DNA of 64,000 nt, taken from positions 1 through 64,000 of IMG/VR virus record IMGVR_UViG_3300033064_005393, one strand, 5' to 3'. The notes beneath the pieces were generated by a model that saw only the letters and a list, made by a program, of their open reading frames with translations, had not been told where the DNA came from and ran no database searches. The DNA is from a virus. Below are positions 13,533 through 57,376 of this stretch, in pieces; positions within the stretch are counted from its first letter, which is position 1, and each line of letters starts with the position of its first letter. The translations under genes were made by a program, and so were the position numbers.

Positions 13533-13539
13533 ATAAATA
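13533..13539 (-). promoter_or_regulatory. late-promoter-like TATTTAT, 15 nt before ATG 13517
   Basis: TATTTAT on the minus strand, followed by an A-rich leader (AGATAAAAATCCGAA) and the ATG of the 232-residue protein. Spacing equals that of the divergent copy at 13552. Confidence 0.6.
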
Positions 13540-13551
13540 CCATCAATAAAC

Positions 13552-13558
13552 TATTTAT
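13552..13558 (+). promoter_or_regulatory. late-promoter-like TATTTAT, 15 nt before ATG 13574
   Basis: TATTTAT followed by the leader CTTAAAAATCTGTTG and ATG 13574. Only 12 bases separate it from the divergent element, so two polymerases probably compete for this 55-base gap. Confidence 0.6.
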
Positions 13559-13573
13559 CTTAAAAATCTGTTG

Positions 13574-15724
13574 ATGGCCACCCAAAGCATTAATAATTAT
13601 TACTTCAATCGGTACGATATTAGACTTGATAGTAGTTCATATTTTGACATAACATTGGCGTCCGATGCTCGTGGTTTTGATGAAGAAGTAGTATATTCAC
13701 AAAAACTAATTGCTGAGGATAATGGTGATAGATTGCCTATTAACATCGATCTGAATAGTTTTTATTGTAACCCCAAACAGGATTTGAAGTGGGGTGTTTA
13801 TTATTCTGCCAATACTTTGGTATCAAAAAACTACTTTGATGTGGGTAATTTGGATCAATCTTGTTTACCTGGTTATCAACCATTATGTGATGTTGGTTTG
13901 ACTGCAACAGACAATGGTTTATATGATTTTATGACCGGACAAACTCTGTATTTCACAATGAAAGTAGAAAATGATCCTAATTCACAATATTATTTTGATC
14001 CACATTATTACAACAGAAGGATGAAATTACATCCCGTGAAAAGTGTAATAGATCAACTACCGAATCAAAAGTTTTCAGGAATAACCGCAAATACCGTATA
14101 TAATATTGTTTCAAAAAAAGATGACAGGGTTGGTTATTATAATGAACTTTATGGTGGATTTTATCAAGGATTTTACAAACTGTTTGGTTGGGATTATGAA
14201 GTTTTTCCTGAAAGAGTAAATAAAGGTTGGACTGCGGAGTTCTTGTTAAAACCAAGACAGAGAGACGAATTTACAATCAATCCGTCACAAAAATACTTGA
14301 ATGACATATACCCTGATAATTCCGGTACTTTCTTCTTTTTTGGTACGCGAGCGGAAAACAAATATTACCATCCTGCTTCAGGTTCTGTCGAAAATGCAAT
14401 TGGATTTTCTTGCGACTTTGATATTAAAATAAGTGGTGGGACACTTTGGCAATATGACAGAGTAACCTCAGGATTGACTTGTATCTCTGCTTGTTCCTGT
14501 TCATCGACCGCAGTCACAAACTCTAATTGTTTTGCGATTTATCCATATTCTTCTACTACCGTTCTTCACAGAATAGGTCCTTGTGAGGTATATGAAACAG
14601 TACAAGATATCAAACCATATGATCCTGCTTGGGATGTTGTTTCAAACGCACTTTCACTACGATTTGAAGGGGATCCAAAAGATCCTCACCTGTGTGTAAA
14701 ATATATTAAACTGACTGGTGATTGTGTAACTACGGGTGTTTGTACTACAGGTTTAACATATGAGTCAGGATATACCATAAATGAGATATGTTCTTCAAGA
14801 GGTATCTATTTTGATTGTGACTATGACTCTTTGACTTGTTTGACGGCAAATACCAAAGAAAGATGGGTTTATATAAGTGCGGTATTCGATAGGTATGAAA
14901 CTTTGGAAGGGTGTGATTTATTGAATGCCGGTGGTCTTGGTGATATTAGAAAAGAAGTTTACCCATCCGAACTTAACGGTACATCGTATAATCTTATTAT
15001 GCCACCACAAACACACTACACTGGCGATACTGGTGTTTTAGCAGATTATAACTATTGCACTGACACAATATCAGGAATAACAATAGATTGTTCTAAAAAT
15101 CAGGGTGTTGAGCAAAAAGAGTCTATCATTCAATTGAATAGAAGATGGTTGGATGATGTTAGAAATAGAAGAGGGTTATTGAAGTTATACGTTAACGGAT
15201 ATCTTTTTATGATTATTGAAGATTTCGAAGAGATTATACCAAGGGAATTGAATACCCAAAAAGAAAAACAAATAGGCGTTCCATTTAATATATCCATAGG
15301 CGGAGGAACTCAAGGTTTGAGAGAAAACACTATATTCCCAAATTGCGAAGACAAATATGGTCCGTATATTCAAGATCCTGAATTATTTCCAAATAATGTT
15401 TTGTCAGGGACATCCTTATCAGGTTTGAGTACCGAAATATTAATTGAACAAAATTTTGGTGGAACATTTATGGGTGGTCTCTCCCAATTCAGAATGTATG
15501 TCGAACCACTCACATCTGCACAAATTCAACATAACGCAAGGATTTTACAACCTTGGTTTGATTTATATGATTTTTGGTGTTCCAATTGCTATGATTGTCT
15601 ATTGGAGTGTTTCTTCGATTTTTCAATTGGAGAAATTGCCTGTAATTTTGATTGGGTGTTGAGTGAAATTACTTGTGATTTTGGGTTTGTTGCATTTGAC
15701 CCTGAGTATCCTAATGAATCTTAA
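13574..15724 (+). CDS. cysteine-rich virion structural protein candidate
   Basis: The 716-residue protein has no catalytic motif and the make-up of a tail or fibre protein: many Gly, Asn, Tyr and beta-strand patterns, and at least 20 Cys concentrated in residues 290-440 and 670-710. The part TILIEQNFGGTFMGGLSQFRMYVEPLTSAQI resembles the last strands of a concanavalin/LamG-like jelly roll. The C-terminus repeats a short unit (CFFDFSIGEIACNFDW, then SEITCDFGFVAFD). I choose ATG 13574 over the TTG one codon earlier. It heads a three-gene structural unit under a late-type promoter. Role in host binding is an inference. Confidence 0.6.
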   Translation: MATQSINNYYFNRYDIRLDSSSYFDITLASDARGFDEEVVYSQKLIAEDNGDRLPINIDLNSFYCNPKQDLKWGVYYSANTLVSKNYFDVGNLDQSCLPGYQPLCDVGLTATDNGLYDFMTGQTLYFTMKVENDPNSQYYFDPHYYNRRMKLHPVKSVIDQLPNQKFSGITANTVYNIVSKKDDRVGYYNELYGGFYQGFYKLFGWDYEVFPERVNKGWTAEFLLKPRQRDEFTINPSQKYLNDIYPDNSGTFFFFGTRAENKYYHPASGSVENAIGFSCDFDIKISGGTLWQYDRVTSGLTCISACSCSSTAVTNSNCFAIYPYSSTTVLHRIGPCEVYETVQDIKPYDPAWDVVSNALSLRFEGDPKDPHLCVKYIKLTGDCVTTGVCTTGLTYESGYTINEICSSRGIYFDCDYDSLTCLTANTKERWVYISAVFDRYETLEGCDLLNAGGLGDIRKEVYPSELNGTSYNLIMPPQTHYTGDTGVLADYNYCTDTISGITIDCSKNQGVEQKESIIQLNRRWLDDVRNRRGLLKLYVNGYLFMIIEDFEEIIPRELNTQKEKQIGVPFNISIGGGTQGLRENTIFPNCEDKYGPYIQDPELFPNNVLSGTSLSGLSTEILIEQNFGGTFMGGLSQFRMYVEPLTSAQIQHNARILQPWFDLYDFWCSNCYDCLLECFFDFSIGEIACNFDWVLSEITCDFGFVAFDPEYPNES

Positions 15725-15740
15725 TGAATATATATAAAAA

Positions 15741-16505
15741 ATGAATTTCTTCATCAGACAACACAGCAATCTTCCTGTACTTAAAGTTCAACTTTTCAAG
15801 GACAGTAGAAACAATTTTAGGGAATTTGCAAATGATTTGTTAGATGCAACTATTACATTTTCAATGGTCGATGAGATAACAGGGACATACGTTATTATAG
15901 ATCAACCAGCATATTTGGAAGAAAATGTTGGATATCCTGGTGAATACTTTATAGTTTATCAGTTTACTAAAAAACAAACCAAAAAAACAGGTGGTTACAT
16001 AGGACAATTCAAAGTAAAAAATAATCAGGGTGAGATTATAGTACCTGTAAGGGAAATATTACAGATAAACATTACAGATTCTTTTAAGTTAGGTGATGCA
16101 TCTGCAAGTTCATCTTGTTGTAAAGTTAATGGGGGATTTGTACCAACACCAAAACCATCAGAGACACCAAATCCTGATTTTGTAACGCCTACGCCAACCG
16201 TCACACCAACTGTTACGACGACTCCTACAAATACTCCAACCCCAACTCCGAGTACGCCCTTTTACTATCTTAGTTTTAAATATAGTAACACCTCTTTCAA
16301 TGATACTTGTTTAAATTCAGAAGATGGTGATACCTATTTTTCAAATAGTGTCCCACCTCTTGGTCTCGGGGAACTAATTTATATTAGTACTATTACAGGT
16401 AATGAGCCGGCACCTGATGGATATTACATATTGGATGATGATTCTATTGGTTATAGAGTTGTTTCGTCACAAATTTTGGAAGTCAATATAAACCCTTGTA
16501 TATAA
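15741..16505 (+). CDS. virion-like protein with Pro/Thr linker and extra C-terminal domain
   Basis: Residues 1-118 are a beta-rich domain (FFIRQHSNLPVLKVQLF ... GGYIGQFKVKNNQGEIIVPVREIL) clearly paralogous to the next gene. It is followed by a Cys pair (SSCCK), a Pro/Thr linker (about 133-173, TPTPTVTPTVTTTP-type) and a second domain of about 80 residues ending NPCI. Such linkers usually separate folded modules in exported or surface proteins, so the last domain may be a displayed head or fibre tip. No family recognised for either domain. Confidence 0.6.
   Translation: MNFFIRQHSNLPVLKVQLFKDSRNNFREFANDLLDATITFSMVDEITGTYVIIDQPAYLEENVGYPGEYFIVYQFTKKQTKKTGGYIGQFKVKNNQGEIIVPVREILQINITDSFKLGDASASSSCCKVNGGFVPTPKPSETPNPDFVTPTPTVTPTVTTTPTNTPTPTPSTPFYYLSFKYSNTSFNDTCLNSEDGDTYFSNSVPPLGLGELIYISTITGNEPAPDGYYILDDDSIGYRVVSSQILEVNINPCI
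16136..16260 (+). repeat. Pro/Thr codon-repeat linker
   Basis: Degenerate ACN-CCN codon repeats within the preceding gene, giving about 40 residues of alternating Thr and Pro. The varied codons argue for selection on the peptide rather than recent DNA slippage. Confidence 0.75.
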
Positions 16506-16514
16506 AATTTAGAT

Positions 16515-16868
16515 ATGGAATTCTTTATCAACCAAAATAGTGAATCTCCCCTCCTTTTAATGCAGGTGGTAAACGATGGAAGGACAAATGCCTATCAGGT
16601 GTACAATGCGGAGTTGGACAATGCGGTTATTCGTTTTTCTATGAAGGAAGAAGCTACGGGTATTATCAAGATTTTAGGTGGTAATGCATATATTACCAAT
16701 GTGACACTTACGAATCCTGATGCACCAACACAATATTACATTTACTACAAGTGGACCAAAAGGGACACGGCAAAAAAGGGTAGATACATCGGGGAGTTTT
16801 CAATTACAAACTCATTTGGTGAGTTGATTGCACCGATCAGAGAGACCCTTTATATCAACATCATTTGA
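16515..16868 (+). CDS. paralogue of the preceding N-terminal domain
   Basis: This 117-residue protein aligns end to end with residues 1-118 of the gene before it: FFINQNSESPLLLMQ against FFIRQHSNLPVLKVQ, IRFSMKEEATG against ITFSMVDEITG, and GRYIGEFSITNSFGELIAPIRETL against GGYIGQFKVKNNQGEIIVPVREIL. It lacks the linker and second domain. The pair is a tandem duplication with one copy extended. Context suggests a small virion protein, for example one attached to the neighbouring Cys-rich protein. Confidence 0.6.
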   Translation: MEFFINQNSESPLLLMQVVNDGRTNAYQVYNAELDNAVIRFSMKEEATGIIKILGGNAYITNVTLTNPDAPTQYYIYYKWTKRDTAKKGRYIGEFSITNSFGELIAPIRETLYINII

Positions 16869-16893
16869 CATCCTAAGGGATACTTCTTATACT
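16865..16893 (+). promoter_or_regulatory. sigma70-like promoter for DNA polymerase
   Basis: TTGACA (16865-16870), a 17-base spacer and TATACT (16888-16893) make a near-consensus promoter. Its -35 overlaps the stop of the preceding structural gene. Transcripts would begin about 16900, leaving a leader of roughly 55 bases. Confidence 0.65.
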
Positions 16894-16910
16894 TATTGGA
16901 CAAGAGTAAT

Positions 16911-16925
16911 CTCAACTTAGTTGAG
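16911..16925 (+). promoter_or_regulatory. hairpin in the DNA polymerase leader
   Basis: CTCAAC TTA GTTGAG is a perfect 6-bp stem with a 3-base loop, 29 bases upstream of the polymerase ATG and downstream of its promoter. There is no U tract, so it is not a terminator. T4 DNA polymerase represses its own translation by binding a leader hairpin; this may be an equivalent. Confidence 0.4.
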
Positions 16926-16954
16926 AGTATAATGTCTCAAGAAAAAGTAATATT

Positions 16955-19777
16955 ATGGTATCACAACAAGAAATCGAAGAATTCCTCTTAGGTGAGGACC
17001 CTGAAAAATATATAGTAGCTCTCGAATACGATTACGCTACATCAAAGATTTACAAGATTATTCAGGACCCTGAAAAGGGAAAGATGATTAAACCCGATAC
17101 ATTTATTCCGTTTGCTTGGGTTGGTGATCTTCATAGTAAAAACTTTTATGGACGTGATAAGTATCGTCAGAAACAAGCAATCACAGAACACGGGATTATA
17201 ATTGAGAAGTTAGAGACACACGGAGACCCTCGTTTGGAGTTGGGTCTTCGTTTTTTTATCAAAACAACCAAGACATATCAGAACCTTGTGAACTTTTTTA
17301 AGAATGGTGGTTTGGATCCTTGGGATCGTGATAATTCGGGCGTTATATCCATTTTACCTCCTGTTGAACAATATCTCGTGCAAAAACAGAAAAGATTGTT
17401 CAAGGGTTTTGAAGAATACGATGAGGTTCACCGATTTGTATTTGATATTGAGACCACGGGTCTTAACCCGAAGGTCGACAAGATATTCCTTATCGGTATG
17501 AAAGATAACAAGGGATTTGTTCACCTGTTGTCTGCACAGAATGAAGATGAAGAACGTGAGATGATTAAGGACTTCTTTAGGACAATCGATGTATTGAAAC
17601 CAACACTTGTTGGTGGTTATAACTCGGCATTCTTTGACTTTCCCTTTATTCTTACTCGAGCTCAGATTCTTGGATTGGACATTAAGAAGATTTCAAAAAC
17701 CCTCCATCCCGATCACCCGTTAAAACAAAAAGAGGGTATTTTAAAACTTGCCAACGAGATGGAACCTTATACTCAAACACAGATGTGGGGTTATAACATT
17801 GTTGATATTGCTCACGCAGTTAGACGTGCTCAGGCAATCAATTCTGACATCAAGAGTTGGGGTCTGAAATACATTACTCAATTTATTGGGGCAGAGAAAG
17901 AAAACCGAGTTTACGTTCAGGGTGATAAGATAGGTAAGATTTATTTTGAAAAGGAGGACTATTACTTTAATCCCCTTTCGGGTGGATTCAAAAAAGTTGG
18001 CGATCGTGGAACTGAAGACTTGCAAACCAGATTCCCTGGTAAATTTGAAATAGTAAAAGGTTCATACCTTATCGAACGATACCTTGATGATGACTTGTAT
18101 GAAACGATGATTGTTGATGGAGAGTTCAATCAAGCAAACTTCCTTCTTGCAAAATTAGTTCCAACAACTTATGAGCGTCTTTCTACTATGGGTACTGCAA
18201 CTCTGTGGAAAATGATTATGGCATCTTGGTCTTACAAACACAATTTGGCAATTCCAGCAAAGGGTGAGAAACGACCATTTACAGGTGGTCTTTCAAGATT
18301 ACTACAGGTAGGATACTCGAGAGATGTATTAAAACTTGACTATTCTTCCCTGTATCCTTCTATTCAGTTGGTTCACGATGTATTCCCAAAGTGTGATGTG
18401 ACAGGTGCGATGAAAAGTATGTTAAAGTACTTCCGTGATACCCGTATTAAATACAAAAACCTTGCTGAAGAATACTCAAAGACCGACCCAAAACTATCAT
18501 CACAATATGGACGTAAACAGTTACCTATCAAAATTTTTATCAATGCGTTATTCGGTTCTCTATCAGCACCTCACGTATTCCCTTGGGGTGATATGGATAT
18601 GGGTGAACAGATTACTTGTACTGGTCGCCAGTATCTGCGTCAGATGATTATGTGGTTTGGTAATCGTGGTTATGAATCATTGGTTATGGATACGGATGGT
18701 GTAAACTTTGCAGTCCCTGAAGAAAGATATTCTTACAAATACATCGGTAAAGGACTAAATGGTCTTGTAACAAAAGGAAAGGAATATGTTGGGACTGAGG
18801 CGGATGTTGCGGAATACAACGACATTTTTATGAGGGATGAGATGGGTCTTGATACAGATGGACAATGGCCAGCAACTATTAACGTTGCTCGTAAAAACTA
18901 TGCCCTTTTGACCGATAAGGGTAAGGTAAAACTTATAGGTAATACCATCAAATCAAAGAGACTTCAGACCTACGTTGCGGAGTTCTTGGATTCAGGTCTA
19001 CGTATGTTGTTGGATGGTAAGGGTCACGAATTCTTGGATTCATACTATGATTATGTAGACAAACTTTACAACAAAAAAATTCCAATAGCAAAAATTGCGA
19101 ATAAAGCACGTGTAAAACAATCTGTTCAGGAATACAAACAACATATCACAAAAAAAACCAAATCCGGTTCTTTTATGTCTCGTCAAGCTCATATGGAATT
19201 GTTATTGAAATCAGGTGTAAATGTAGGATTGGGTGATACGGTTTTCTATGTGAACAATGGTGAAAGAAAATCACACGGGGATGTTCAAAAAAAGGGTGAT
19301 GTACTTCTCTTGAATTGTTATTTGGTAAACGAAAAAGACATTGAACAAAATCCTGATATGTTGGGTGAATATAATGTTCCTCGGTACCTGACGGCCTTCA
19401 ACAAAAGAATAGAACCTTTGTTGGTTGTATTTTCTCCAAAAATCAGAGATGAAATTTTGGTCGAAGATCCTGAAAAGAGACCATATTTTACTAAGACACA
19501 GACACAACTTGTTCGTGGGTTCCCTCGACGCGATGGTGATCAAGATAATATTGATGAAGTATTAACTTTGTCCGATGGTGAAATTGCTTTTTGGAGACAC
19601 CGAGAAATCGACCCGTATTATATGTATCTTGATTCTACTATGGAACTAGTAAATGGTGAGTATATTGCAAAAAATAAAGACCTGATATATGGAGATTATG
19701 AGGTCAAAACGCAAATTCCTAAGGATGAGTTGTATGAGATGGACGAAAACGGTGACTATTTAATTTACTCTTTATGA
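16955..19777 (+). CDS. family B DNA polymerase with proofreading (T4 gp43-like)
   Basis: The replicative polymerase of the phage. The 3'-5' exonuclease part shows FDIETTG (D164, E166), GGYNSAFFDFPF (D228) and a Y-L-D-D-D exo III candidate. The polymerase part shows motif A LDYSSLYPSIQ (D462), motif B KIFINALFGS (the Lys and Gly of KxxxNxxYG, with Phe for Tyr) and motif C VMDTDGVNF (D579, D581). At 940 residues it is the size of T4 gp43 (898). Its stop codon overlaps that of the convergent gene by six bases. It is preceded by a sigma70-like promoter and a hairpin, so it is likely early and possibly autoregulated. Confidence 0.95.
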   Translation: MVSQQEIEEFLLGEDPEKYIVALEYDYATSKIYKIIQDPEKGKMIKPDTFIPFAWVGDLHSKNFYGRDKYRQKQAITEHGIIIEKLETHGDPRLELGLRFFIKTTKTYQNLVNFFKNGGLDPWDRDNSGVISILPPVEQYLVQKQKRLFKGFEEYDEVHRFVFDIETTGLNPKVDKIFLIGMKDNKGFVHLLSAQNEDEEREMIKDFFRTIDVLKPTLVGGYNSAFFDFPFILTRAQILGLDIKKISKTLHPDHPLKQKEGILKLANEMEPYTQTQMWGYNIVDIAHAVRRAQAINSDIKSWGLKYITQFIGAEKENRVYVQGDKIGKIYFEKEDYYFNPLSGGFKKVGDRGTEDLQTRFPGKFEIVKGSYLIERYLDDDLYETMIVDGEFNQANFLLAKLVPTTYERLSTMGTATLWKMIMASWSYKHNLAIPAKGEKRPFTGGLSRLLQVGYSRDVLKLDYSSLYPSIQLVHDVFPKCDVTGAMKSMLKYFRDTRIKYKNLAEEYSKTDPKLSSQYGRKQLPIKIFINALFGSLSAPHVFPWGDMDMGEQITCTGRQYLRQMIMWFGNRGYESLVMDTDGVNFAVPEERYSYKYIGKGLNGLVTKGKEYVGTEADVAEYNDIFMRDEMGLDTDGQWPATINVARKNYALLTDKGKVKLIGNTIKSKRLQTYVAEFLDSGLRMLLDGKGHEFLDSYYDYVDKLYNKKIPIAKIANKARVKQSVQEYKQHITKKTKSGSFMSRQAHMELLLKSGVNVGLGDTVFYVNNGERKSHGDVQKKGDVLLLNCYLVNEKDIEQNPDMLGEYNVPRYLTAFNKRIEPLLVVFSPKIRDEILVEDPEKRPYFTKTQTQLVRGFPRRDGDQDNIDEVLTLSDGEIAFWRHREIDPYYMYLDSTMELVNGEYIAKNKDLIYGDYEVKTQIPKDELYEMDENGDYLIYSL

Positions 19778-20113: not shown

Positions 20114-20114
20114 T

Positions 20115-21221: not shown

Positions 21222-21236
21222 TCAAGTAATTTCTAT

Positions 21237-21243
21237 ATAAATA
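21237..21243 (-). promoter_or_regulatory. late-promoter-like TATTTAT, 15 nt before ATG 21221
   Basis: TATTTAT on the minus strand with leader ATAGAAATTACTTGA to the ATG of the neck-like gene. It lies in the 26-base gap after the stop of the superoxide dismutase fusion. Confidence 0.6.
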
Positions 21244-21247
21244 TCAT

Positions 21248-22807
21248 TTAACCTTTAATTTGGTCTTCTGCGTGAAAAACATAATTTCCATAAACAATTT
21301 CAGTTCTGTTGTTTTGAAAAACCATTGTTTCTCTGTTGTTGTGGAAAACCAAATAGTCGGTTTTGTAAGGTTTTACTTGTGCGGTTTTGTATACCGTAAT
21401 TTTACCATCCTTTTCTTCATAACTCCCAAATGGTTTGATTTGCATTGTTTTGGTTCCTTCGGGTGTTTGCATAAATGCGTCCACACCTTTCAACATATCT
21501 TCACCACTTCCGAGTTCACCAGTTTTGAATATCTCGTCAGTATTAAAAATCTTTTTTAGTTGAACCACAGCATCAAATTCACGTTGATCTCCCTGTTTGT
21601 GTTTTGCATCCAAAGTAGACATAATCGCACTAAATGTTCCTGAGTTTGTGTCAAAAATTCTAAATTGAAGATCTCTTATAACTTTGACCAATCTTTGAGT
21701 TTCTTTAATTTGAATATCAGAATTTTGACCAACTATATTGATGGCATCTAACCCTTGATGACGTAGGTATGTGTTTATATCATTTACTATTGTACAAAAC
21801 AAAGTGTAGTTGGTATTCAATTTGTTGATAACAGATCTACCTGGTTGTTCAAAGTCATAAACGCCATAAAAAGAACCAGGTTCGTATTGGTTTTGATCGT
21901 ACCAATATTCTTTATACACAGTTTTTAGGATTGAATCAATACCTCTACGATATGTTGCCTTAACATCGGGATTTGTGTTGAATACTTCTCTGAATGCCTC
22001 AAGTTGATTTCTGTTACAACCTCTTGATTGACCTTCAGAAATTATTTGTTTGAATTTTACACTTTCTTTCAACTTTTTTTCTGTTCTTTCAATATATATT
22101 TTGTTAACAAATTTCCAATTTACAACCCGCCAAAAGTTTTTTATGTATTGATCTCTTCTGTTACGATATTTTAAGTAGTAGGCGTGTTCCCATATATCAA
22201 GACCTAATAGTGGGTATCCACCGTCCTTAATGGTGTCCATCAGGGGATTATCTTGATTAGTTGTTGTCATAATTTTTAGTTTACCTGAATTGGTGAGAAC
22301 CAACCAAACCCAACCTGATCCAAACTTCTTTGTTGCTTCTTCATTGAATTTTGTTTTAAAGTCCTCCATAGAACCAAAATCCTTTTTTATTCTTTGGATT
22401 ACTGGACCTATTGCTCTTGATTCGGTTGGTGTCAACATCTTCCAAAATAATGCGTGGTTAAAAGCACCACCTGCATTATTTCTAATGTCATCGGTAAATC
22501 TGTTTATTGATTGAACTATTTGTTCAAGTTCCATATCGGAACCTTTTCTCTTTTCTAAGGCTTTGTTGAGTTTGTCTACGTATCCTTTGTAGTGTTTGTT
22601 GTAGTGAGTTGACATTGTTTCTTGGTCAATGAAAACCTCAAGGGCAGAAAAGGAGTATGGTAATCTATCTATACCTACTTTCTTCATTTCTAATAAGATT
22701 GGTTTGTTAATTCCTTCGGATTCTTCAATCTGACGAGAGATAACCTCATCAAATTCCATCATTTCTTCGAGTTTGGAAATCCTTTTGTGGAGTTTAGAAA
22801 ATTTCAT
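21248..22807 (-). CDS. Mn-type superoxide dismutase fused to an unknown, nuclease-like C-terminal domain
   Basis: Residues 45-245 are a complete Fe/Mn superoxide dismutase. All four metal ligands are present: H68 in MSTHYNKHY, H118 in AFNHALFW, D204 and H208 in GLDIWEHAY. G113/G114 before the second His and Q185 in TTNQDNPL are as in Mn enzymes such as SodA. Residues 1-44 are a helical extension. Residues 250-519 are not part of any dismutase; within them E410, D443 (KGVDAF) and Q456-K458 (MQIKPF) fit the spacing of a PD-(D/E)XK nuclease core, a tentative reading. A TATTTAT element 15 bases upstream implies late expression, possibly as a virion protein. It follows the SNF2 helicase gene. Confidence 0.85.
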   Translation of the reverse strand: MKFSKLHKRISKLEEMMEFDEVISRQIEESEGINKPILLEMKKVGIDRLPYSFSALEVFIDQETMSTHYNKHYKGYVDKLNKALEKRKGSDMELEQIVQSINRFTDDIRNNAGGAFNHALFWKMLTPTESRAIGPVIQRIKKDFGSMEDFKTKFNEEATKKFGSGWVWLVLTNSGKLKIMTTTNQDNPLMDTIKDGGYPLLGLDIWEHAYYLKYRNRRDQYIKNFWRVVNWKFVNKIYIERTEKKLKESVKFKQIISEGQSRGCNRNQLEAFREVFNTNPDVKATYRRGIDSILKTVYKEYWYDQNQYEPGSFYGVYDFEQPGRSVINKLNTNYTLFCTIVNDINTYLRHQGLDAINIVGQNSDIQIKETQRLVKVIRDLQFRIFDTNSGTFSAIMSTLDAKHKQGDQREFDAVVQLKKIFNTDEIFKTGELGSGEDMLKGVDAFMQTPEGTKTMQIKPFGSYEEKDGKITVYKTAQVKPYKTDYLVFHNNRETMVFQNNRTEIVYGNYVFHAEDQIKG

Positions 22808-22822
22808 TCTGTTATTTTAAAG

Positions 22823-22829
22823 ATAAATA
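22823..22829 (-). promoter_or_regulatory. late-promoter-like TATTTAT, 15 nt before ATG 22807
   Basis: TATTTAT on the minus strand with leader CTTTAAAATAACAGA to the dismutase fusion start. It sits in the 30-base gap after the helicase stop codon, so the fusion has its own late unit although it is downstream of an early-type gene. Confidence 0.6.
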
Positions 22830-22837
22830 CATAGAAA

Positions 22838-24620: not shown

Positions 24621-24649
24621 AATATAATTGATTTGTCAATATTTATCAA
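24621..24649 (-). promoter_or_regulatory. sigma70-like promoter for the SNF2 helicase
   Basis: On the minus strand TTGATA (24649-24644), 17 bases, then TATATT (24626-24621), about 16 bases before GTG 24604. The upstream box overlaps the plus-strand late element at 24640-24646. Confidence 0.5.
24640..24646 (+). promoter_or_regulatory. late-promoter-like TATTTAT, 4 nt before ATG 24651
   Basis: TATTTATCAAT is followed at once by ATG. If transcription starts about seven bases downstream of the element the mRNA would be leaderless or nearly so. Confidence 0.5.
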
Positions 24650-24650
24650 T

Positions 24651-34167: not shown

Positions 34168-34185
34168 AAAATTGGTTGAGTATCT

Positions 34186-34192
34186 ATTTATC
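34186..34192 (+). promoter_or_regulatory. late-promoter-like TATTTAT, 15 nt before ATG 34208
   Basis: TATTTAT with leader CAATAAAACGCATAG before the large baseplate gene. Confidence 0.6.
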
Positions 34193-45875: not shown

Positions 45876-45882
45876 TATTTAT
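45876..45882 (+). promoter_or_regulatory. late-promoter-like TATTTAT, 14 nt before ATG 45897
   Basis: TATTTAT with leader AAGAAAAAAGTTTT before the two small genes. Confidence 0.6.
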
Positions 45883-47743: not shown

Positions 47744-47771
47744 GGTGCAGGAAATACCTGCACCTTTTTTT
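47744..47771 (+). terminator. intrinsic terminator after SSB
   Basis: Stem GGTGCAGG / CCTGCACC, loop AAATA, seven T. Downstream recombination genes would be made by read-through or an unseen promoter. Confidence 0.88.
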
Positions 47772-47794
47772 AACTTTCAAAACTCCAAAAAAAT

Positions 47795-49014: not shown

Positions 49015-49030
49015 CATTAACTAAACATAG

Positions 49031-50035
49031 GTGATTCGTACATTAATTGTTGATGCAGACAATCTGTTTAAAATAGGTTTCCACGGGGTAAGAGAATTTT
49101 ACCACGACGGTAAACATATTGGAGGTATTTTTCATTTTTTGAATGTTGTTCGTAAACTTTTAATTAACCAAGAATACGATAAGGTTTTCGTGGTATGGGA
49201 TGGTCCTAACAATTCCATTCAGCGTAAAGCCATTTATTCGGAATATAAAAACAATAGGACTTCTTCTTTGACTGAATCAAAGAGGGAGTCCTTTTATTTT
49301 CAAAAGAACCGAGTCAAACAATATTTGGAAGAAATGTTTGTGCGACAGGTTTGTTTGGAAGGATGTGAATCGGATGATGTTATTGCCTATTATTGTCAAA
49401 TATCACTTGATGAACAAAAAACTATTTTTTCATCCGATAAGGATTTAACACAACTTATTTCTGATAAGGTTATGATATATTCACCGATTCATCGGGAGAC
49501 TTATGGGTATGGAGAAAAAGTTAAAATTGGTCAATTAATTATACCAATCGAAAATGTCGTAACACTCAAGGTTTTCTTGGGTGACAAATCCGATAACATT
49601 CCTGGTATTGATCGTTTAGGTGAGAAAACTTTTGTTAAATTCTTTCCTGAGATTTTGGACAAACCTGTTTCTGTTGATTACATTATAGAACGGACCAAGG
49701 AGATCCTTTCTGAGGACAATTCCTTGACCGTGTTAAACAATGTAATCAATGGTAAGACAAAGACACAAACACTCGGAGAAGAGTTCGTTAAAACGAATAT
49801 TTCACTTATTGATCTTAGTCGACCACTATTATCAGAAGAAAACAAAGAGGAAATTAGAAACTATTATTCTGAGGAGTTAGACCCCGAAGATAGAGGGTAT
49901 AGAAATATACTTAGATTTATGGAAGAAGATGGGATCTTTAAGTATCTTCCAAAAACAAACGACGGGTGGGTAGAGTTTGTACAGCCGTTTTTAAAGCTCA
50001 CCAGAAAAGAAAAAAGAAGAACTAAAAAAAATTAA
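49031..50035 (+). CDS. 5'-3' exonuclease, T4 RNase H/FEN family
   Basis: The enzyme removes RNA primers and flaps. Metal-binding clusters are all visible: LIVDADNLF (D8, D10), VVWDGPNN, GCESDDVIAYY, FSSDKDLTQLI and the helix-hairpin region FLGDKSDNIPGI. The start codon is GTG at 49031; 16 bases separate it from uvsX. Length 334 is close to T4 RNase H (305). The last 12 residues are very basic (RKEKRRTKKN) and may contact DNA or SSB. Confidence 0.9.
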   Translation: MIRTLIVDADNLFKIGFHGVREFYHDGKHIGGIFHFLNVVRKLLINQEYDKVFVVWDGPNNSIQRKAIYSEYKNNRTSSLTESKRESFYFQKNRVKQYLEEMFVRQVCLEGCESDDVIAYYCQISLDEQKTIFSSDKDLTQLISDKVMIYSPIHRETYGYGEKVKIGQLIIPIENVVTLKVFLGDKSDNIPGIDRLGEKTFVKFFPEILDKPVSVDYIIERTKEILSEDNSLTVLNNVINGKTKTQTLGEEFVKTNISLIDLSRPLLSEENKEEIRNYYSEELDPEDRGYRNILRFMEEDGIFKYLPKTNDGWVEFVQPFLKLTRKEKRRTKKN

Positions 50036-50038
50036 ACT

Positions 50039-50491: not shown

Positions 50492-50494
50492 ATG

Positions 50495-50501
50495 TATTTA
50501 T
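50495..50501 (+). promoter_or_regulatory. TATTTAT element, 30 nt before the helicase
   Basis: TATTTAT followed by AAAACACGAAAAAC, upstream of ATG 50532. It is the only copy before a replication gene, so it may give a late boost or be coincidental. Confidence 0.4.
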
Positions 50502-50531
50502 AAAACACGAAAAACGTATTAACGATAGACT

Positions 50532-51905: not shown

Positions 51906-51923
51906 TTAAAATAAATAAAAAAT

Positions 51924-53207
51924 ATGAATAACAACATTTTTAGTATGGCACTAAAAGATCACCGATATGTGATCAAAAGAAGTGGTGAAAAAGTCTTCTT
52001 TGAATCTGAAAAAATAAAAAACGCAGTCACTAAAGCAATGGCTTCAGTTGGAAAAGTTGACTTAGAGATGGCTGAAAAAATTGCAAGAATTGCAAAAAGA
52101 AGTCTTTTCAAAGGAGATAAGGATAGAGTTCCTCACGTGGACGAAGTTCACGATATGGTGGAGAACAAACTTATGGACAATGGTTTAAATGACGTTGCTA
52201 AGGAATACATCATTTATAGATTGAAACACAGGCCAAATATTTTTCAAAAAAGAGTAAATTTGAAACCTTATGAATACCCTCAATTAGTTGAATATGTTGA
52301 TGCGATAAGACACTCATATTGGGTTCACACGGAGTTTAATTTTACTTCCGATATTCAGGACTTTAAAGTTCACCTTTCCGAAAAAGAACAAAGTGCGGTA
52401 CAAAGAGCAATGTTGGCGATTTCACAAATTGAAATAGCGGTAAAATCTTTTTGGGGAGACATCTTCAAGAAACTACCGAAACCTGAAATCGGAAATGTTG
52501 GGGCTACCTTTGCAGAATCAGAAGTAAGACACGCGGACGCGTACTCACATTTGATCCAACTTCTTGGTTTAAATAAAGAGTTTGAAAATATCCTTGAAGT
52601 ACCAGCAATTCGCAGAAGAATCAAATACTTGGAAAAAACAATTCACAATTCTAAATCTGTTGAAAATCAAGATTATTTTGAATCTGTAGTATTGTTCTCG
52701 ATGTTTGTCGAGAATGTATCACTATTTTCTCAGTTTTTGATTATTATGTCCTTCAACAAACATAAAAATGTTTTGAAAGGGATAAGTAACGCAGTTGAGG
52801 CTACGTCTAAAGAAGAAAATATTCACGCAAGTTTTGGATTCGACTTGGTTAATTTAATCAAGGAAGAAAATCCAACTTGGTGGAATGAAGAATTAATTGA
52901 AGATCTGATTGATGCAACAAAAGATGCTTACGAAGCGGAATCTGAAATTGTTGATTGGATTTTTGAAAAAGGAGATCTTTCTTTCCTAACGAAGGCACAA
53001 ACAATGGAATTTATCAAACATAGATTTAATACCTCCTTGAATTCTATTGGAATTGATAGTATATTTGAAATCAATCACCCTTTGTTGGAAACAACTGAAT
53101 GGTTTGATGATGAAATTTTAACCACGAAACACACCGATTTCTTTAATAAGAGAAGTATCAATTACAGTAAGAAATCGAAATCGATAACAATGAATGATTT
53201 ATTTTAA
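51924..53207 (+). CDS. nrdB: ribonucleotide reductase small subunit with N-terminal ATP-cone
   Basis: NrdB makes the radical used by NrdA. Residues 13-103 are an ATP-cone (YVIKRSGEKVFFESEKIKNA, HVDEVHDMVENKL, YIIYRLKHRP), a regulatory dATP/ATP sensor normally on NrdA. The metal ligands are E170, E200 and H203 (ESEVRH), E263 and E298/H301 (EENIH); Tyr207 is where the radical Tyr sits. An ATP-cone on NrdB is known from the flavobacterium Leeuwenhoekiella blandensis, whose dATP form is inactive. A Glu first ligand also recalls class Id, manganese-using enzymes; the metal cannot be proven from sequence. Confidence 0.88.
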   Translation: MNNNIFSMALKDHRYVIKRSGEKVFFESEKIKNAVTKAMASVGKVDLEMAEKIARIAKRSLFKGDKDRVPHVDEVHDMVENKLMDNGLNDVAKEYIIYRLKHRPNIFQKRVNLKPYEYPQLVEYVDAIRHSYWVHTEFNFTSDIQDFKVHLSEKEQSAVQRAMLAISQIEIAVKSFWGDIFKKLPKPEIGNVGATFAESEVRHADAYSHLIQLLGLNKEFENILEVPAIRRRIKYLEKTIHNSKSVENQDYFESVVLFSMFVENVSLFSQFLIIMSFNKHKNVLKGISNAVEATSKEENIHASFGFDLVNLIKEENPTWWNEELIEDLIDATKDAYEAESEIVDWIFEKGDLSFLTKAQTMEFIKHRFNTSLNSIGIDSIFEINHPLLETTEWFDDEILTTKHTDFFNKRSINYSKKSKSITMNDLF

Positions 53208-53216
53208 TATATAGAT

Positions 53217-54923
53217 ATGGAAGATAAAAAACCTTTTGATTGGATTAACGAAGAGTCTATTACTTTTCTTCGTAGAGGATATTTGAGTGAGGGTGAAGAA
53301 CCTTTAGAAAGAATTATGACGATAGCAAAACACGCTGAAGAACTTTTGGGTATGAAGGGTTTTGCCGATAAGTTTTATGAGTATATGGGTAAAGGTTGGT
53401 ATTCTTTATCTTCACCTGTATGGGCTAACTTCGGTAAAAAAAGAGGTCTACCGGTTAGTTGTTTTGGATCAAACATCGGAGATAATATTGAGTCTATTCT
53501 TTACACTCAGGCCGAAGTTGGTGAAATGAGTAAAATGGGTGGAGGTACCTCAGGATATTTTGGGAACATTCGTGGTAGAGGTGCAAAAATCACCGACAAT
53601 GGACAAGCACCAGGATCAGTTCACTTTATGAACCTATTCCAAAGTGTGGTTGATAACATTTCACAGGGGTCTACCCGTAGAGGTCGTTTTTCACCGTACC
53701 TACCAGTGGAACATCCCGATATTATGGAGTTCTTGGAAATAGGAACAGAAGGGTTTCCAATTCAAGAGTTGACTCACGCGGTTACTGTTACTGATGAGTT
53801 TATGAATGATATGATTGATGGTGACAAAAAGAAAAGAGCTATTTGGGCTAAGATCATTCAACGCAGAGGTGAGATTGGTTATCCATACATTATGTTCACC
53901 GATACAATGAACAAAAATGCTCCCGAGGTTTACAAGGACAAAGAAATGAAAATTTATAACTCTAACTTGTGTTCCGAGATTGCATTACATAACTCTGAAG
54001 AAGAATCTTTTGTGTGTGTATTGTCATCTATGAATCTCCTTCACTATGATGAGTGGAAGGACACAGACGCGATTGAGTTGATGGTTTACTTTCTTGATGT
54101 TGTTGTAACAGAATTCATCACCAAAATTGATGACATTAGAAATAATGGGACTATTGAGGGACAAAGAGCATTCTTCTACCTTGAAAAGGCATACAATTTT
54201 GCTAAAAGACAAAGAGCACTCGGTTTGGGTGTATTGGGATGGCACTCACTTCTTCAGTCTAAGGGACTTCCCTTTGATAGTAAGGACAGTGCGAGATTGA
54301 ATGTAGAAGTTTTTAAACTAATAAAAGAAAAGTCGTATGAAGCTTCTGCTACTTTGGCTAAAATGTTTGGAGAACCCGAACATTTGATAGGATACGGGAG
54401 AAGAAATGTTACCTTGAATGCAATTGCACCGACAACATCTTCAGCATTTATCTTAGGACAGGTATCTCAGTCAATTGAACCAATTTGGTCTAACGCTTAT
54501 GTTAAGGACGTGGCTAAATTGAAAGTCACCATTAAGAACCGAGTACTTCAGAAGTTGTTGGCATCTATGAAAAAGGATACCAAAGCGACTTGGGATAGTA
54601 TTAAAAAACACGATGGTTCGGTTCAACACTTAGATTTCTTAACACAAGAAGAAAAAGATGTATTCAGAACTTTTTCGGAAGTCACCCAATCAACAATCAT
54701 CAATCAAGCTGCGGTTAGACAGGATTTCATTGACCAATCACAGTCATTGAACTTAATGATTTCACCTGATATGCCAACCAAAGATGTTAACAAACTTCTT
54801 ATAGATGCTTGGCAGTTAGGAGTCAAAACATTATACTACCAACACTCAATGAACTCAGCACAGGCATTCGCGAGAAAAAAACTCAATCTAAATGATTTGG
54901 TTTGTACTTCCTGTGAAGCGTAA
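53217..54923 (+). CDS. nrdA: ribonucleotide reductase large subunit lacking the ATP-cone
   Basis: NrdA reduces ribonucleotides to deoxyribonucleotides. C82 (PVSCFGS) and C267 (FVCVLSS) are the redox pair, NLCSEI with N250, C252 and E254 is the active site, and C563/C566 (CTSC) form the C-terminal relay pair. The two Tyr of the radical path (YYQHS region) are present. At 568 residues it lacks the ATP-cone and is near the minimal size known for class Id enzymes of Flavobacterium; the sensor is on NrdB instead. It is 9 bases after nrdB and is followed by a terminator. Confidence 0.92.
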   Translation: MEDKKPFDWINEESITFLRRGYLSEGEEPLERIMTIAKHAEELLGMKGFADKFYEYMGKGWYSLSSPVWANFGKKRGLPVSCFGSNIGDNIESILYTQAEVGEMSKMGGGTSGYFGNIRGRGAKITDNGQAPGSVHFMNLFQSVVDNISQGSTRRGRFSPYLPVEHPDIMEFLEIGTEGFPIQELTHAVTVTDEFMNDMIDGDKKKRAIWAKIIQRRGEIGYPYIMFTDTMNKNAPEVYKDKEMKIYNSNLCSEIALHNSEEESFVCVLSSMNLLHYDEWKDTDAIELMVYFLDVVVTEFITKIDDIRNNGTIEGQRAFFYLEKAYNFAKRQRALGLGVLGWHSLLQSKGLPFDSKDSARLNVEVFKLIKEKSYEASATLAKMFGEPEHLIGYGRRNVTLNAIAPTTSSAFILGQVSQSIEPIWSNAYVKDVAKLKVTIKNRVLQKLLASMKKDTKATWDSIKKHDGSVQHLDFLTQEEKDVFRTFSEVTQSTIINQAAVRQDFIDQSQSLNLMISPDMPTKDVNKLLIDAWQLGVKTLYYQHSMNSAQAFARKKLNLNDLVCTSCEA

Positions 54924-54948
54924 TATTTGAAATAGTAGATATAAAGAA

Positions 54949-54975
54949 ACTCGACAAAACTTGTCGGGTTTTTTT
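54949..54975 (+). terminator. intrinsic terminator after nrdA
   Basis: Stem ACTCGACAA / TTGTCGGGT (one G-T pair), loop AAC, seven T. Confidence 0.85.
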
Positions 54976-55000
54976 ATTTCAAAAAAAAATATCAGGAATA

Positions 55001-55007
55001 TATTTAT
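55001..55007 (+). promoter_or_regulatory. late-promoter-like TATTTAT, 5 nt before ATG 55013
   Basis: TATTTATGAAAT and ATG, again the short-leader form, directly after the nrdA terminator. Confidence 0.5.
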
Positions 55008-55012
55008 GAAAT

Positions 55013-55477
55013 ATGGCAGACGGTCAAACATACGGTATTAATTTTCCATTCAGAGATAGCCCTGTTGGGGATTACCTTTCTTTATCTGTAACAACTGAGG
55101 AAGAGATTAGAAGTAATCTTCTTCATCTATTGTTAACAAGAAGAGGTAGTAGATATTATCTACCTACATTTGGTACAAGGTTGTATGAGTTTATTTTCGA
55201 ACCATTGGATGGACCTTCTTTTGAGGCTATTAAATCAGACATTAAAGACGCGGTCGGGGAATTTATTCCTAACCTTACGATAAACAATATTTCAATTACA
55301 CCATACACTGACGATGCTGAACTGATCGGAGATCTAAACGTCACTAATTTAGGTGTGGGGGGTGTTTACAGAGTACCTGGTAGAGGGACTGAAGAATATA
55401 CTGCAAAAATAAGAATAGATTTCACAGCAGACGATATTGCTTTCGGACAACGAGATTTCGTAATTATAAATATTTAA
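55013..55477 (+). CDS. baseplate wedge protein gp25-like
   Basis: gp25 starts sheath assembly at the baseplate and is related to GpW and type VI secretion TssE. The 154-residue protein has INFPFRDSPVGDYLSLSVT, then TEEEIRSNLLHLLLTRRGSRYYLPTFGTRLYEFIFEP, the lysozyme-related conserved core with E-x-x-x-R, and GFxxP-like TIP segment near IPNLTINNISITP. Length is close to T4 gp25 (132). It begins the second baseplate unit, 7 bases before gp6. Confidence 0.92.
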   Translation: MADGQTYGINFPFRDSPVGDYLSLSVTTEEEIRSNLLHLLLTRRGSRYYLPTFGTRLYEFIFEPLDGPSFEAIKSDIKDAVGEFIPNLTINNISITPYTDDAELIGDLNVTNLGVGGVYRVPGRGTEEYTAKIRIDFTADDIAFGQRDFVIINI

Positions 55478-55483
55478 TACCAA

Positions 55484-57322
55484 ATGGCAAACAGAAGAAT
55501 TTCCTATACTGAAAGAGACTTTGAAGGATTACGTCAGGATCTTATCAACTATACTCAACAATACTATCCAGATACTATTGATAACTTCAATGATGCTTCT
55601 GTGTATTCAGTATTTTTGGATTTAAATGCTGCTATCGGTGACAACCTACACTACCATATTGACAGAAGTATTCAGGAGACTGTCCTTCAATATGCACAAC
55701 AAAGATCATCAATCTATAATATCGCAAGGACTTACGGACTTAAAATACCTGGAAACAGACCATCAGTCGCTTTGGTTGACTTATCAATTACAGTTCCTGC
55801 ATTTGGCGACAAAGAAGACACACGTTATTTGGGGATCTTGAGATCAGGTTCACAATTTCTTGGTGCAGGTCAAGTATTTGAGAATGTATACGACATTGAC
55901 TTCTCATCACAATACAACAATCAGGGGTTTCCAAACCAAACAAAGATTCCAAATTTTGATTCAAACAACAGACTAATCAACTACACGATAACCAAAAGAG
56001 AAGTGGTTGTTAACGGTGTCACCAAAATATTCAAAAAGGTTATCAACCCGTCAGATGTGAGACCATTCTACGAATTTTTCCTCCCCGACAGAAATGTGTT
56101 GTCGGTAAGTGCTATTATTCAAAAAGACGGAACAACTTATCAAACCACACCGACATATCAGGAGTTTCTTAATCCATTGAATAGATGGTATGAAGTGGAT
56201 GCGTTAGCTGAAAATACCATATTTGTAGAAGATCCAACAAAACCAAGTGACAGAGCCGGTATCAAAGTTGGAAGATACATCGAGACAGATACAAGATTTA
56301 TAACAGAATTCACACCTGAAGGTTTCTTAAAATTGACCTTTGGTAATGGAACCACAACTCCTGAACAACAATTGTCTCAGTTTTCTAGAACAGGAGTTCC
56401 TTTAAGAATTCAGGATTACCAAAACAATATTGGATTAGGTACAACCGTAAAACCAAATACCACTTTGTTTGTTCAATATAGAATTGGTGGTGGATTGGCA
56501 TCTAACGTGGGGGTTAATGTAATCAATCAGGTTGGAACAATTAACTTTTTTGTTAATGGACCGTCAGAGAATCTTAACCAAACAGTTAATGGTTCACTAC
56601 AGGTAAACAACGTAACAGCTGCGATAGGAGGGGCAAACCAACCAACAATTGAAGAGGCAAGACAGATGGTAAGTTTTAACTTTGCTGCACAGAAGAGAGC
56701 GGTAACAATCAACGATTATAAGTCATTGATTTCTACAATGCCTGGTAAGTTTGGTGCACCTGCTAAGGTATCAATTACAGAACAAAACAACAAAATTTTA
56801 ATTCAAATTTTATCTTACGATACAAATGGTTCTTTGACTGCTAATGTGTCAAATACTTTAGCTCAAAATATCGCAACCTATTTGTCAAACTATCGTATGA
56901 TAAATGATTATATTCAAGTTGAAGCGGCACAAGTTATTGACTTGGAATTTGAATATTCAATTGTATTTGATTCAACACAAAATCAGGGTCAAGTTATTAC
57001 ACAAGTTATCGATCAAACTCAAACATTTATGAGTCCACAAGTCAGAGATTTAGGTGAGAATGTTAATATATCAAATTTACGAAGAATCATTCAAGATATA
57101 CCAGGTGTTGTATCGGTTGCAGATATCAAAGTTTTTAATAAAGTTGGGGGACAATATTCATCAAGTGAAACATCTCAAAGATACTCAAACAATGAGACAA
57201 AACAGATTCAATTAATTGACGAAACGATTTACGCACAACCAAATCAAATTTATCAGGTTAGATTCCCTAACAAAGACATCAAAGTTAGAATCAAAAATCT
57301 CAAAACAGTAGATTTCACCTAA
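55484..57322 (+). CDS. baseplate wedge protein gp6-like (gpJ family)
   Basis: gp6 forms the iris ring of the baseplate. ISYTERDFEGLRQDLINYTQQYYPD with FNDASVYSVFLDLNAAIGDNLHYHIDRSIQETVL is the conserved start of the gp6/gpJ/TssF-like group; the second half includes EEARQMVSFNFAAQKRAVTINDYKSLI and LISTMPGKFG, the hinge found in this family. At 612 residues it equals T4 gp6 (660) in size. It is next to gp25, as in T4-like and T6SS clusters. Confidence 0.9.
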   Translation: MANRRISYTERDFEGLRQDLINYTQQYYPDTIDNFNDASVYSVFLDLNAAIGDNLHYHIDRSIQETVLQYAQQRSSIYNIARTYGLKIPGNRPSVALVDLSITVPAFGDKEDTRYLGILRSGSQFLGAGQVFENVYDIDFSSQYNNQGFPNQTKIPNFDSNNRLINYTITKREVVVNGVTKIFKKVINPSDVRPFYEFFLPDRNVLSVSAIIQKDGTTYQTTPTYQEFLNPLNRWYEVDALAENTIFVEDPTKPSDRAGIKVGRYIETDTRFITEFTPEGFLKLTFGNGTTTPEQQLSQFSRTGVPLRIQDYQNNIGLGTTVKPNTTLFVQYRIGGGLASNVGVNVINQVGTINFFVNGPSENLNQTVNGSLQVNNVTAAIGGANQPTIEEARQMVSFNFAAQKRAVTINDYKSLISTMPGKFGAPAKVSITEQNNKILIQILSYDTNGSLTANVSNTLAQNIATYLSNYRMINDYIQVEAAQVIDLEFEYSIVFDSTQNQGQVITQVIDQTQTFMSPQVRDLGENVNISNLRRIIQDIPGVVSVADIKVFNKVGGQYSSSETSQRYSNNETKQIQLIDETIYAQPNQIYQVRFPNKDIKVRIKNLKTVDFT

Positions 57323-57369
57323 CCTTATATTCAGTTTAATTTACTACCACCTAAAATTTGATAAATAAC

Positions 57370-57376
57370 TATTTAT
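57370..57376 (+). promoter_or_regulatory. late-promoter-like TATTTAT, 15 nt before ATG 57392
   Basis: TATTTAT with leader CACAAAAGGATAACT before the 1688-residue gene. Confidence 0.6.

Follow-up and report, generated by a model that had tools for sequence, protein, structure and literature searches.

The 64,000-base stretch of viral DNA analysed here (the window) is part of a 65,248-base IMG/VR virus record and carries the word TATTTAT upstream of fourteen genes. We consider it likely that this word is a phage-specific -7 box for an RNA polymerase of the Bacteroidota type, that transcription starts 4-5 nucleotides (nt) downstream of it and that a protein remotely related to the phage T4 sigma factor gp55 is its probable reader. 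This reading is drawn from conserved positions of the word, two spacings to the start codon, a T before the ATG, a conserved AAA, AT tracts and a sigma-like gene in relatives. An initial annotation of the window had proposed a shared promoter class marked by TATTTAT. The positions, conservation and spacing of the word and the anatomy of its flanks give this proposal good support, and the comparisons argue that the class is real, clade-wide and promoter-like. The same annotation had described the element as oriented opposite to the T4 late box TATAAATA. This is literally so; however, a modified Bacteroidota -7 box appears to be the simpler account and the better description, and the likeness of TATTTAT to TATAAATA read backwards is probably a coincidence. 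The window encodes T4-like virion proteins, namely gp25-like and gp6-like baseplate wedge proteins, a tail tube, an Ad2 connector and a tail sheath, together with a replication set consisting of UvsX-like and DnaB-like proteins, a single-stranded DNA-binding protein (SSB) and ribonucleotide reductase.

TATTTAT sites in the window

In the following, the gap is the number of nt between TATTTAT and the start codon. The word is not enriched overall, with 24 sites in the window against a shuffle mean of 30.1 and 93 of 100 shuffles reaching 24, and TATAAATA likewise lacks plain enrichment over the whole window. As the initial annotation had argued, the case rests on position rather than on count: 14 of the 24 sites are followed on their own strand by a start codon after 4-31 nt (gaps 4, 4, 5, 14, 14, 15 (five times), 16, 28, 30 and 31), and no gene was called behind the other ten. 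All fourteen sites that had been reported are present, except that the one placed at 34186 begins at 34185. Eight genes had been credited with a spacing of 14-15 nt; seven of them have it, on both strands (13517 and 21221 and 22807 on the minus strand; 13574, 32338, 45897 and 57392 on the plus strand), and the eighth (34208) has 16 nt, when the ATG at 13574 and not the TTG at 13571 is taken as the start. Enrichment at this spacing over shuffled sequence had been set beforehand as a test, and it was found: among 49 open reading frames (ORFs) of the window with an ATG start and at least 60 amino acids (aa), eight have TATTTAT at gap 13-16, compared with a shuffle mean of 0.09 and a maximum of 2 in 500 shuffles. 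The more surprising part is a second spacing class at gap 4-5 (24651, 29748 and 55013), which had escaped the initial annotation. Two of the same 49 ORFs belong to it (shuffle mean 0.08, maximum 2 in 500 shuffles). Three sites have a longer gap of 28-31 nt (30857, 50532 and 26479). The fourteen boxes are as follows.

13533..13539, minus strand: gap 15 to ATG 13517 (232-aa protein, DUF3721 match)
13552..13558, plus strand: gap 15 to ATG 13574 (12 to TTG 13571; 716 aa)
21237..21243, minus strand: gap 15 to ATG 21221 (Ad2-like connector)
22823..22829, minus strand: gap 15 to ATG 22807 (519 aa, superoxide dismutase domains)
24640..24646, plus strand: gap 4, predicted leaderless ATG 24651 (172 aa); also in L001, L002 and L005 among loci L001-L005
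26441..26447, plus strand: gap 31 to ATG 26479 (tail sheath by family match)
29737..29743, plus strand: gap 4, predicted leaderless ATG 29748 (47-aa ORF); also in the close relatives L001 and L002
30822..30828, plus strand: gap 28 to ATG 30857 (tail tube); 4 of 4 nonredundant relatives
32317..32323, plus strand: gap 14 to ATG 32338 (609 aa); 2 of 2 nonredundant relatives
34185..34191, plus strand: gap 16 to ATG 34208 (1586 aa); 3 of 3 nonredundant relatives
45876..45882, plus strand: gap 14 to ATG 45897 (74 aa)
50495..50501, plus strand: gap 30 to ATG 50532 (DnaB-like helicase); 24 of 24 nonredundant relatives
55001..55007, plus strand: gap 5, predicted leaderless gp25 ATG 55013; 36 of 36 nonredundant relatives
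57370..57376, plus strand: gap 15 to ATG 57392 (1688 aa); 27 of 27 nonredundant relatives

The listed start of the ORF behind the box at 24640 is a TTG at 24633, upstream of the box.

Conservation in related viruses

Relatives were gathered by using the gp6-like and the 609-aa proteins of the window. They belong to a large family of T4-like viruses (the clade) that are mostly uncultured and are represented by contigs of up to 295 kilobases (kb). The loci used are the best 80 of at least 598 relatives of the gp6-like protein and the best 80 of 300 relatives of the gp55-like protein, and the counts therefore lean to near relatives. For an orthologue test, only loci with enough upstream DNA and an alignment beginning no more than 3 residues from the start were used, and near-identical upstream sequences were removed; in the case of gp25, 78 loci had a match, 74 were used and 36 were kept. 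TATTTAT occurs in the last 60 nt before gp25 in all 36 of these nonredundant relatives (shuffle mean 3.9), before gene 57392 in 27 of 27 (shuffle mean 1.2) and before DnaB in 24 of 24 (shuffle mean 1.5). It is absent before the gp6-like gene in all 41 relatives, and the gp6-like gene of the window starts 6 nt after gp25. The word was also not found before the orthologous starts of NrdA (0/22) and of the genes at 49031 (0/16), 50039 (0/16) and 46134 (0/13). Between relatives, TATTTAT stays constant while the flanking sequence varies.

Moreover, all 7-mers at all positions were scanned upstream of 1358 nonredundant ORFs from 159 of 165 sources, to which a set of 2630 ORFs had been reduced. Among the pairs of word and position with at least 8 counts, TATTTAT at gap 4 ranks first (41 against 2.0 expected) and TATTTAT at gap 5 second (38 against 2.6), and gaps 14 and 15 are also high (21 each against 1.8), many of these pooled counts containing orthologues. 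When 429 protein families are counted instead, the word gives 29 family hits at gaps 4-5 and 38 at gaps 13-16, compared with 22 over the seven gaps from 6 to 12. The relative G001 (214 kb) alone has 20 sites at gaps 4-5 (shuffle mean 0.5) and 14 at gaps 13-16 (shuffle mean 0.95). Eight other large contigs (121-295 kb), one of which encodes a gp55-like protein identical to that of G001, contain the pattern TATTTAT-N3/4-TATG 170 times and its reversed form 15 times; for TATTTAT-N7/8-TATG the counts are 16 and 17. The reverse-complement word ATAAATA was considered as an upstream signal and rejected, as its distribution before start codons is flat without a positional peak. A badly chosen first pattern, which required exactly 11 nt of spacing after TATTTATA, had no match in the record itself.

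Predicted start sites and leaderless mRNAs

According to the promoter passages of a study of Flavobacterium johnsoniae, 4 or 5 nt separate the -7 element TAHHTTTG of its promoters from the start site, and AT-rich motifs have their centres at -18 and -28 (PMC6847099). We propose a phage-specific promoter class that has TATTTAT as its core and is used by the Bacteroidota-type RNA polymerase of the host. In this class, the word would take the place of TAHHTTTG without a clear -33/-35 element, and transcription would begin 4-5 nt after it. At gap 4-5, the first transcribed base (+1) would be the A of the AUG, giving a leaderless mRNA, and at gap 13-16 the transcript would begin at a conserved AAA and carry a leader of about 10 nt. 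As far as the host element is described, TATTTAT would share its place, together with AT-rich tracts near -18 and -28 and a weak or missing -33 element (PMC6847099). However, TATTTAT has TTAT in place of TTTG and departs from the consensus, and the viral genomes use it beside true TAHHTTTG boxes. Moreover, 87% of the predicted F. johnsoniae transcripts have leaders of more than 10 nt (PMC6847099), unlike the predicted leaderless class of the viruses.

The bases around the box are consistent with these predicted starts. The base at -1 is T in 39 of 40 gap-4 and 31 of 36 gap-5 ORFs, compared with 46% of 1125 ORFs without a box; in G001 alone, the figures are 19/19 and 90/196. In the gap 13-16 class, bases five to seven behind TATTTAT are AAA, with 80-100% per position, although their distance to the ATG varies, and the fixed distance to the box fits an initiation site. 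If gene calls are ignored, ATG piles up in G001 and the window at gap 4 (23) and gap 5 (13), whereas GTG, TTG and CTG are flat. Upstream of the predicted start, the G+C content is 1-12% at -28 to -25 and 8-16% at -18/-17. Only such AT tracts were seen upstream of TATTTAT; a -33 TTG was tried and rejected because it gave no clear peak, a weak TTG excess being confined to a minority of the sites. The box is also distributed as expected of a promoter-like signal between genes of the same direction: it is present before 11 of 669 ORFs at a spacing of up to 5 nt, 24 of 161 at 6-20 nt and 135 of 248 at 21-80 nt. A further sign lies in terminator-like hairpins, which in codirectional intergenic gaps of 41-250 nt precede 25 of 30 gap 4-5 ORFs, 3 of 29 gap 13-16 ORFs and 30 of 110 box-less ORFs. 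Averaged by family, the fractions are 0.59, 0.33 and 0.17, respectively, and much of the larger raw contrast thus comes from gp25 orthologues. In the window, such a hairpin stands just upstream of the gp25 box, and similar ones are visible 5' of gp25 in relatives.

54950..54976, plus strand: intrinsic-terminator-like hairpin with a T-run, read from the sequence

Host-type boxes offer a calibration of the spacing. Called ORFs with TAHHTTTG show an isolated peak at gap 4 (n=9, eight in G001 and one in the window) with none at gaps 0-3 and 5-9, and all nine have T at -1. The example in the window would belong to the other promoter class.

7421..7428, minus strand: host-type -7 box TAATTTTG, gap 4 to ATG 7416, predicted leaderless start

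Leaderless (TA-led) bacterial genes are described as having a -10-type signal some 10-12 nt ahead of their start codon (PMC3160421). The gap 4-5 class shares this trait, with the gap following a 7-nt box and being specific to ATG. TA-led genes are, in the parts of that work concerned with them, a trait of bacterial genomes (PMC3160421), whereas the present case would be a viral promoter class with two sharp spacings. A looser analogue may be seen in the late promoters of phiKZ (TATG, with G as the start), which likewise overlap an ATG-like sequence at the start site; as described, however, phiKZ uses its own multisubunit RNA polymerase and a G start (PMC4666361), while here there is a separate upstream box and a predicted A start. 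Among the matches listed in a search of open-access PMC titles and abstract openings, there was no description of a TATTTAT promoter or of leaderless late genes in phages of Bacteroidota; two of these papers use the term 'leaderless' for other phage systems (PMC10986495, PMC9004378).

A candidate sigma factor

The likely reader of the box would be a virus-encoded sigma-like protein that is remotely related to T4 gp55 and whose gene is syntenic across the clade. In G001, it has 249 aa and matches the T4 late sigma family phrog_234 weakly (E 0.003 and 0.037). After the hidden Markov model of the sigma-like family had been broadened with three distant members, T4 gp55 was the best hit outside the family (E 2.5e-4) and the RpoD-like protein of G001 the next (8.5e-4). 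An hhalign comparison of the family with T4 gp55 gave 12%, and 6% with a narrower alignment. Against 79 Bacteroidota RpoD-type proteins, hhalign gave the family 0.5%. Searches of PDB sequences with the protein and its profile yielded no relevant match, and the late sigma family phrog_12791 had no match in seven records, which is uninformative because the controls were silent too. The sigma-like gene directly follows a homologue of window ORF 50-877 in all 80 loci (the best 80 of 300), and the window stops 51 bases into the next gene. Thus, the virus of the window most likely has a gp55-like gene that continues beyond the contig end.

1..51, minus strand: first 17 codons (MLTDEISGTSENQEIS..) of the next gene, a predicted gp55-like sigma factor, cut by the contig end

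In a second structural comparison, the 27 best matches were sigma factors or sigma-containing complexes by entry title, with the RPSD, RPSB and RPSH entries presumably being sigma factors by UniProt naming. Region 2 of E. coli sigmaE on -10 DNA was superimposed on the model with Z 7.8 and a root-mean-square deviation (rmsd) of 2.8 over 90 residues, although, by the tool's own caution, helical models can reach Z values of this size by chance. These matches speak with weak to moderate strength for a region-2-like fold. According to the passages on gp55 in a T4 review, its sigma similarity is confined to domain 2 and it has a C-terminal clamp motif (PMC2988020). By contrast, the sigma-like protein has about 90 additional C-terminal residues, and, by inspection of the alignments, the last residues of the family are close to ..KIHNQ, a hydrophobic and acidic clamp-binding end as described for gp55 being absent. 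The additional domain was modelled alone with fair confidence (predicted local distance difference test, pLDDT, 84). Foldseek found no match for it at E <=0.001, and in VIA it aligned with SigA region 4 (Z 4.9, rmsd 3.6, 67 residues), unrelated proteins scoring as high or higher (best Z 6.1). A Foldseek search against viral models gave one unnamed match (E 1.2e-4). The C-terminal residues may form a sigma-4 or gp33-like domain.

It is a tentative proposal, and not the most probable outcome, that a one-piece late sigma factor, combining a gp55-type region 2 with a C-terminal sigma-4 or gp33-like domain, reads TATTTAT together with the host core polymerase and fires many leaderless viral mRNAs across the clade. 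If it were true, this would be the fused late sigma factor whose absence is remarked on where the T4 review asks why none has ever been found (PMC2988020), and it would be coupled to leaderless translation. More generally, a promoter class of a large and mostly uncultured phage clade would have been defined from sequence alone, with starts predicted to the base. Two testable questions are thereby raised, namely whether T4-like phages have a fused late sigma factor and whether viruses of Bacteroidota make leaderless mRNAs on a large scale. The latter concerns hosts whose mRNAs are described as being without Shine-Dalgarno sequences (PMC6847099).

Bacteroidota are the likely hosts of this virus family. 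The closest cultured relative by the gp6-like protein is Flavobacterium phage immuto (28% identity), followed by Mel-JY01, which is labelled as a Microcystis phage (27%). The relatives of the RpoD-like sigma factor of G001 include Bacteroidota RpoD-type proteins (the best 80 of 180 loci found by peptide patterns). By title, these 80 loci are all from Bacteroidota except one that is titled only 'bacterium'; the genus Cacconaster was looked up, and the remaining taxon names we take to be Bacteroidota. Immuto gp118 is a homologue of the sigma-like protein (E 6.8e-19), and TATTTAT is present in immuto before the genes for the terminase, portal, tail sheath, tail tube, hub and tape measure at gaps 17-31. 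Since this cultured phage has both the box before virion genes and the sigma-like homologue, the promoter and sigma steps are open to laboratory study.

Alternative explanations

Several observations weigh against TATTTAT being a -7 box with a start 4-5 nt downstream and a gp55-like reader. All start sites given above are predictions. If gene calls are ignored, TAHHTTTG in G001 and the window is followed by ATG 14, 5, 6, 9, 13, 0 and 11 times at gaps 0-6, without a clear peak at gap 4, and the host-box calibration therefore rests on the nine called ORFs. The box becomes scarcer again at longer codirectional spacing (16 of 49 ORFs at 81-150 nt and 10 of 47 at 151-400 nt). A TTG stands 17-23 nt before TAnnTTT[AG] in 22 of 232 boxed upstream sequences, compared with 9.6 in simple shuffles, in which the box is broken up as well, and a weak -33 element is therefore possible in some of them. 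In immuto, 91 annotated coding sequences (CDS) were chosen with weight on named and structural genes, of which 90 were examined and 26 have TATTTAT within 60 nt; it was not found within 60 nt upstream of gp23 and the prohead protease. Fourteen of the 26 have gaps of 17-26 and three have gaps of 4-5, and ATG shows no sharp spacing peak after the word. Thus, the leaderless arrangement is mainly one of the window's own clade. In Mel-JY01 and LR756508, distant sigma-like homologues are present but TATTTAT shows no peak in about 42 kb each, so that box and sigma factor need not pair, or the specificity has shifted. Moreover, the kinship with gp55 is remote and speaks with weak to moderate strength, given the phrog_234 E values of 0.003-0.04; the AlphaFold model of the full protein is of moderate confidence (pLDDT 66, predicted template modelling score 0.38), and Foldseek matches to it are weak (best E 0.12). 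Finally, G001, G003, G004 and G005, four of the seven records searched, encode an RpoD-like sigma factor that could read the box.

This last point leads to the most probable alternative, a genuine promoter class whose reader is not the gp55-like protein but the RpoD-like sigma factor of the phage (271 aa in G001) or a host sigma factor that accepts TATTTAT as a variant -7 box. We regard it as possible but rather doubtful. The RpoD-like proteins (Sigma70_r2 E down to 8e-19) are related to Bacteroidota RpoD, TATTTAT resembles TAHHTTTG as described for the host and apparently occupies the same place, and the gp55-like genes of Mel-JY01 and LR756508, which occur without the box, favour another reader. 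However, immuto has no detectable RpoD-like gene (best E 0.11), although TATTTAT precedes its virion genes, and other genes of this phage are preceded by a distinct class of the form GTTG-N~20-TATnTTTAG. The missing clear -33 TTG before TATTTAT counts against such a reader as well.

It is improbable that UAUUUAU acts in the RNA as a translational operator or as a stability or processing signal near the start codon. The word is indeed very near the AUG in many genes, and T4 has translational control near start codons. However, the distance from box to AUG ranges from 4 to more than 30 nt while that from box to AAA is constant, the DNA 5' of the box carries AT tracts, and tightly packed genes hardly ever have the box. 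The terminator-like hairpins count against this reading as well, being concentrated before gap 4-5 ORFs compared with box-less ones, although few gap 13-16 ORFs have one.

Slightly less probable still is a true T4 late-promoter system that is activated through the sliding clamp and in which the box is merely inverted. Like the T4 late promoters (TATAAATA, gp55/gp33/gp45), the TATTTAT class has a short A/T box of the -10 type without a clear -35 element before virion genes of T4-like myoviruses, the relatives encode a protein remotely related to gp55, and the box is TATAAATA on the other strand. However, it is TATTTAT and not TATAAATA that stands in the sense strand, and the register differs: where the T4-family late box is described, it has bases at -13/-12 (PMC2988020), whereas the box of the window would extend from about -12/-11 to -6/-5. 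The C-terminus of the sigma-like family, as described above, also argues against this explanation. The gp45 clamp family phrog_223 had no match in seven records, which is uninformative because the controls gave none either. As a control, the 60 nt upstream of 53 CDS, chosen from 74 features in a stretch of T4, were searched; TATAAATA occurs 12 times at gaps 14-28 and TATTTAT seven times at gaps 12, 14, 14, 15, 22, 26 and 31. The three sites at gaps 14-15 and the lack of any at gaps 4-5 make the gap 4-5 class the more telling one.

A chance occurrence of an A/T word in A/T-rich intergenic DNA has a negligible probability, as the unenriched overall count and the three chance-like T4 sites at gaps 14-15 are opposed by the position, shuffle and reversed-pattern tests and strongly by the orthologue test.

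Genes of the TATTTAT class

Nearly all of the genes had been regarded as virion-type. Family matches bear this out for the tail sheath (26479), tail tube (30857), gp25 (55013) and the Ad2 connector (21221); however, the DnaB helicase (50532) is not a virion protein, 22807 has superoxide dismutase domains, and the rest have no assigned function. In G001, a function scan covered 20 of the 59 genes with TATTTAT. Twelve had no match, and the other eight were a connector, a tail protein, a weak tape-measure match, two glycosyltransferases, a kinase-like protein, a helicase and a family of unknown function; with this mixed remainder, a mostly virion content could not be shown in G001. Late action of the class is suggested by gene content alone, and the inclusion of DnaB, with the box in all nonredundant relatives, and of glycosyltransferases in G001 weakens it.

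Additional observations

The DUF3721 match covers the N-terminus of the 232-aa protein (12819-13517, minus strand), which is divergent from gene 13574, with gap 15 on both sides. The 519-aa protein (21248-22807, minus strand) has N- and C-terminal Fe/Mn superoxide dismutase domains (Pfam E 4e-23 and 2e-41) and a long additional C-terminal part; it adjoins the connector gene and has a TATTTAT box upstream. A terminator-like hairpin at 31345-31414 (plus strand) has its T-run immediately before the start codon of a hub-like gene (31414), and exact TATTTAT is absent from the last 60 nt before this gene. In several of the loci L106-L185, as well as at L098:13721-13924, the gene downstream of the gp55-like one encodes about 120 aa and has a TATTTAT box at gap 4-5. 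In immuto, sixteen genes in NC_055915 67,600-75,100 have TATnTTTAG-like boxes at a distance of 24-30 nt from the start codon. Most of these boxes have a GTTG some 20 nt further upstream, and they apparently form a separate, host-like promoter class. Bacteroidota-style TATATTTG boxes lie 3 nt before two ATGs in Mel-JY01 (L191), and its Microcystis label may deserve a check. The box of gene 57392 sits in a near-palindrome GATAAATAACTATTTATC (57360-57377, plus strand), possibly an operator, whose upstream half is also kept among 45 distinct sequences of relatives from among L006-L085.

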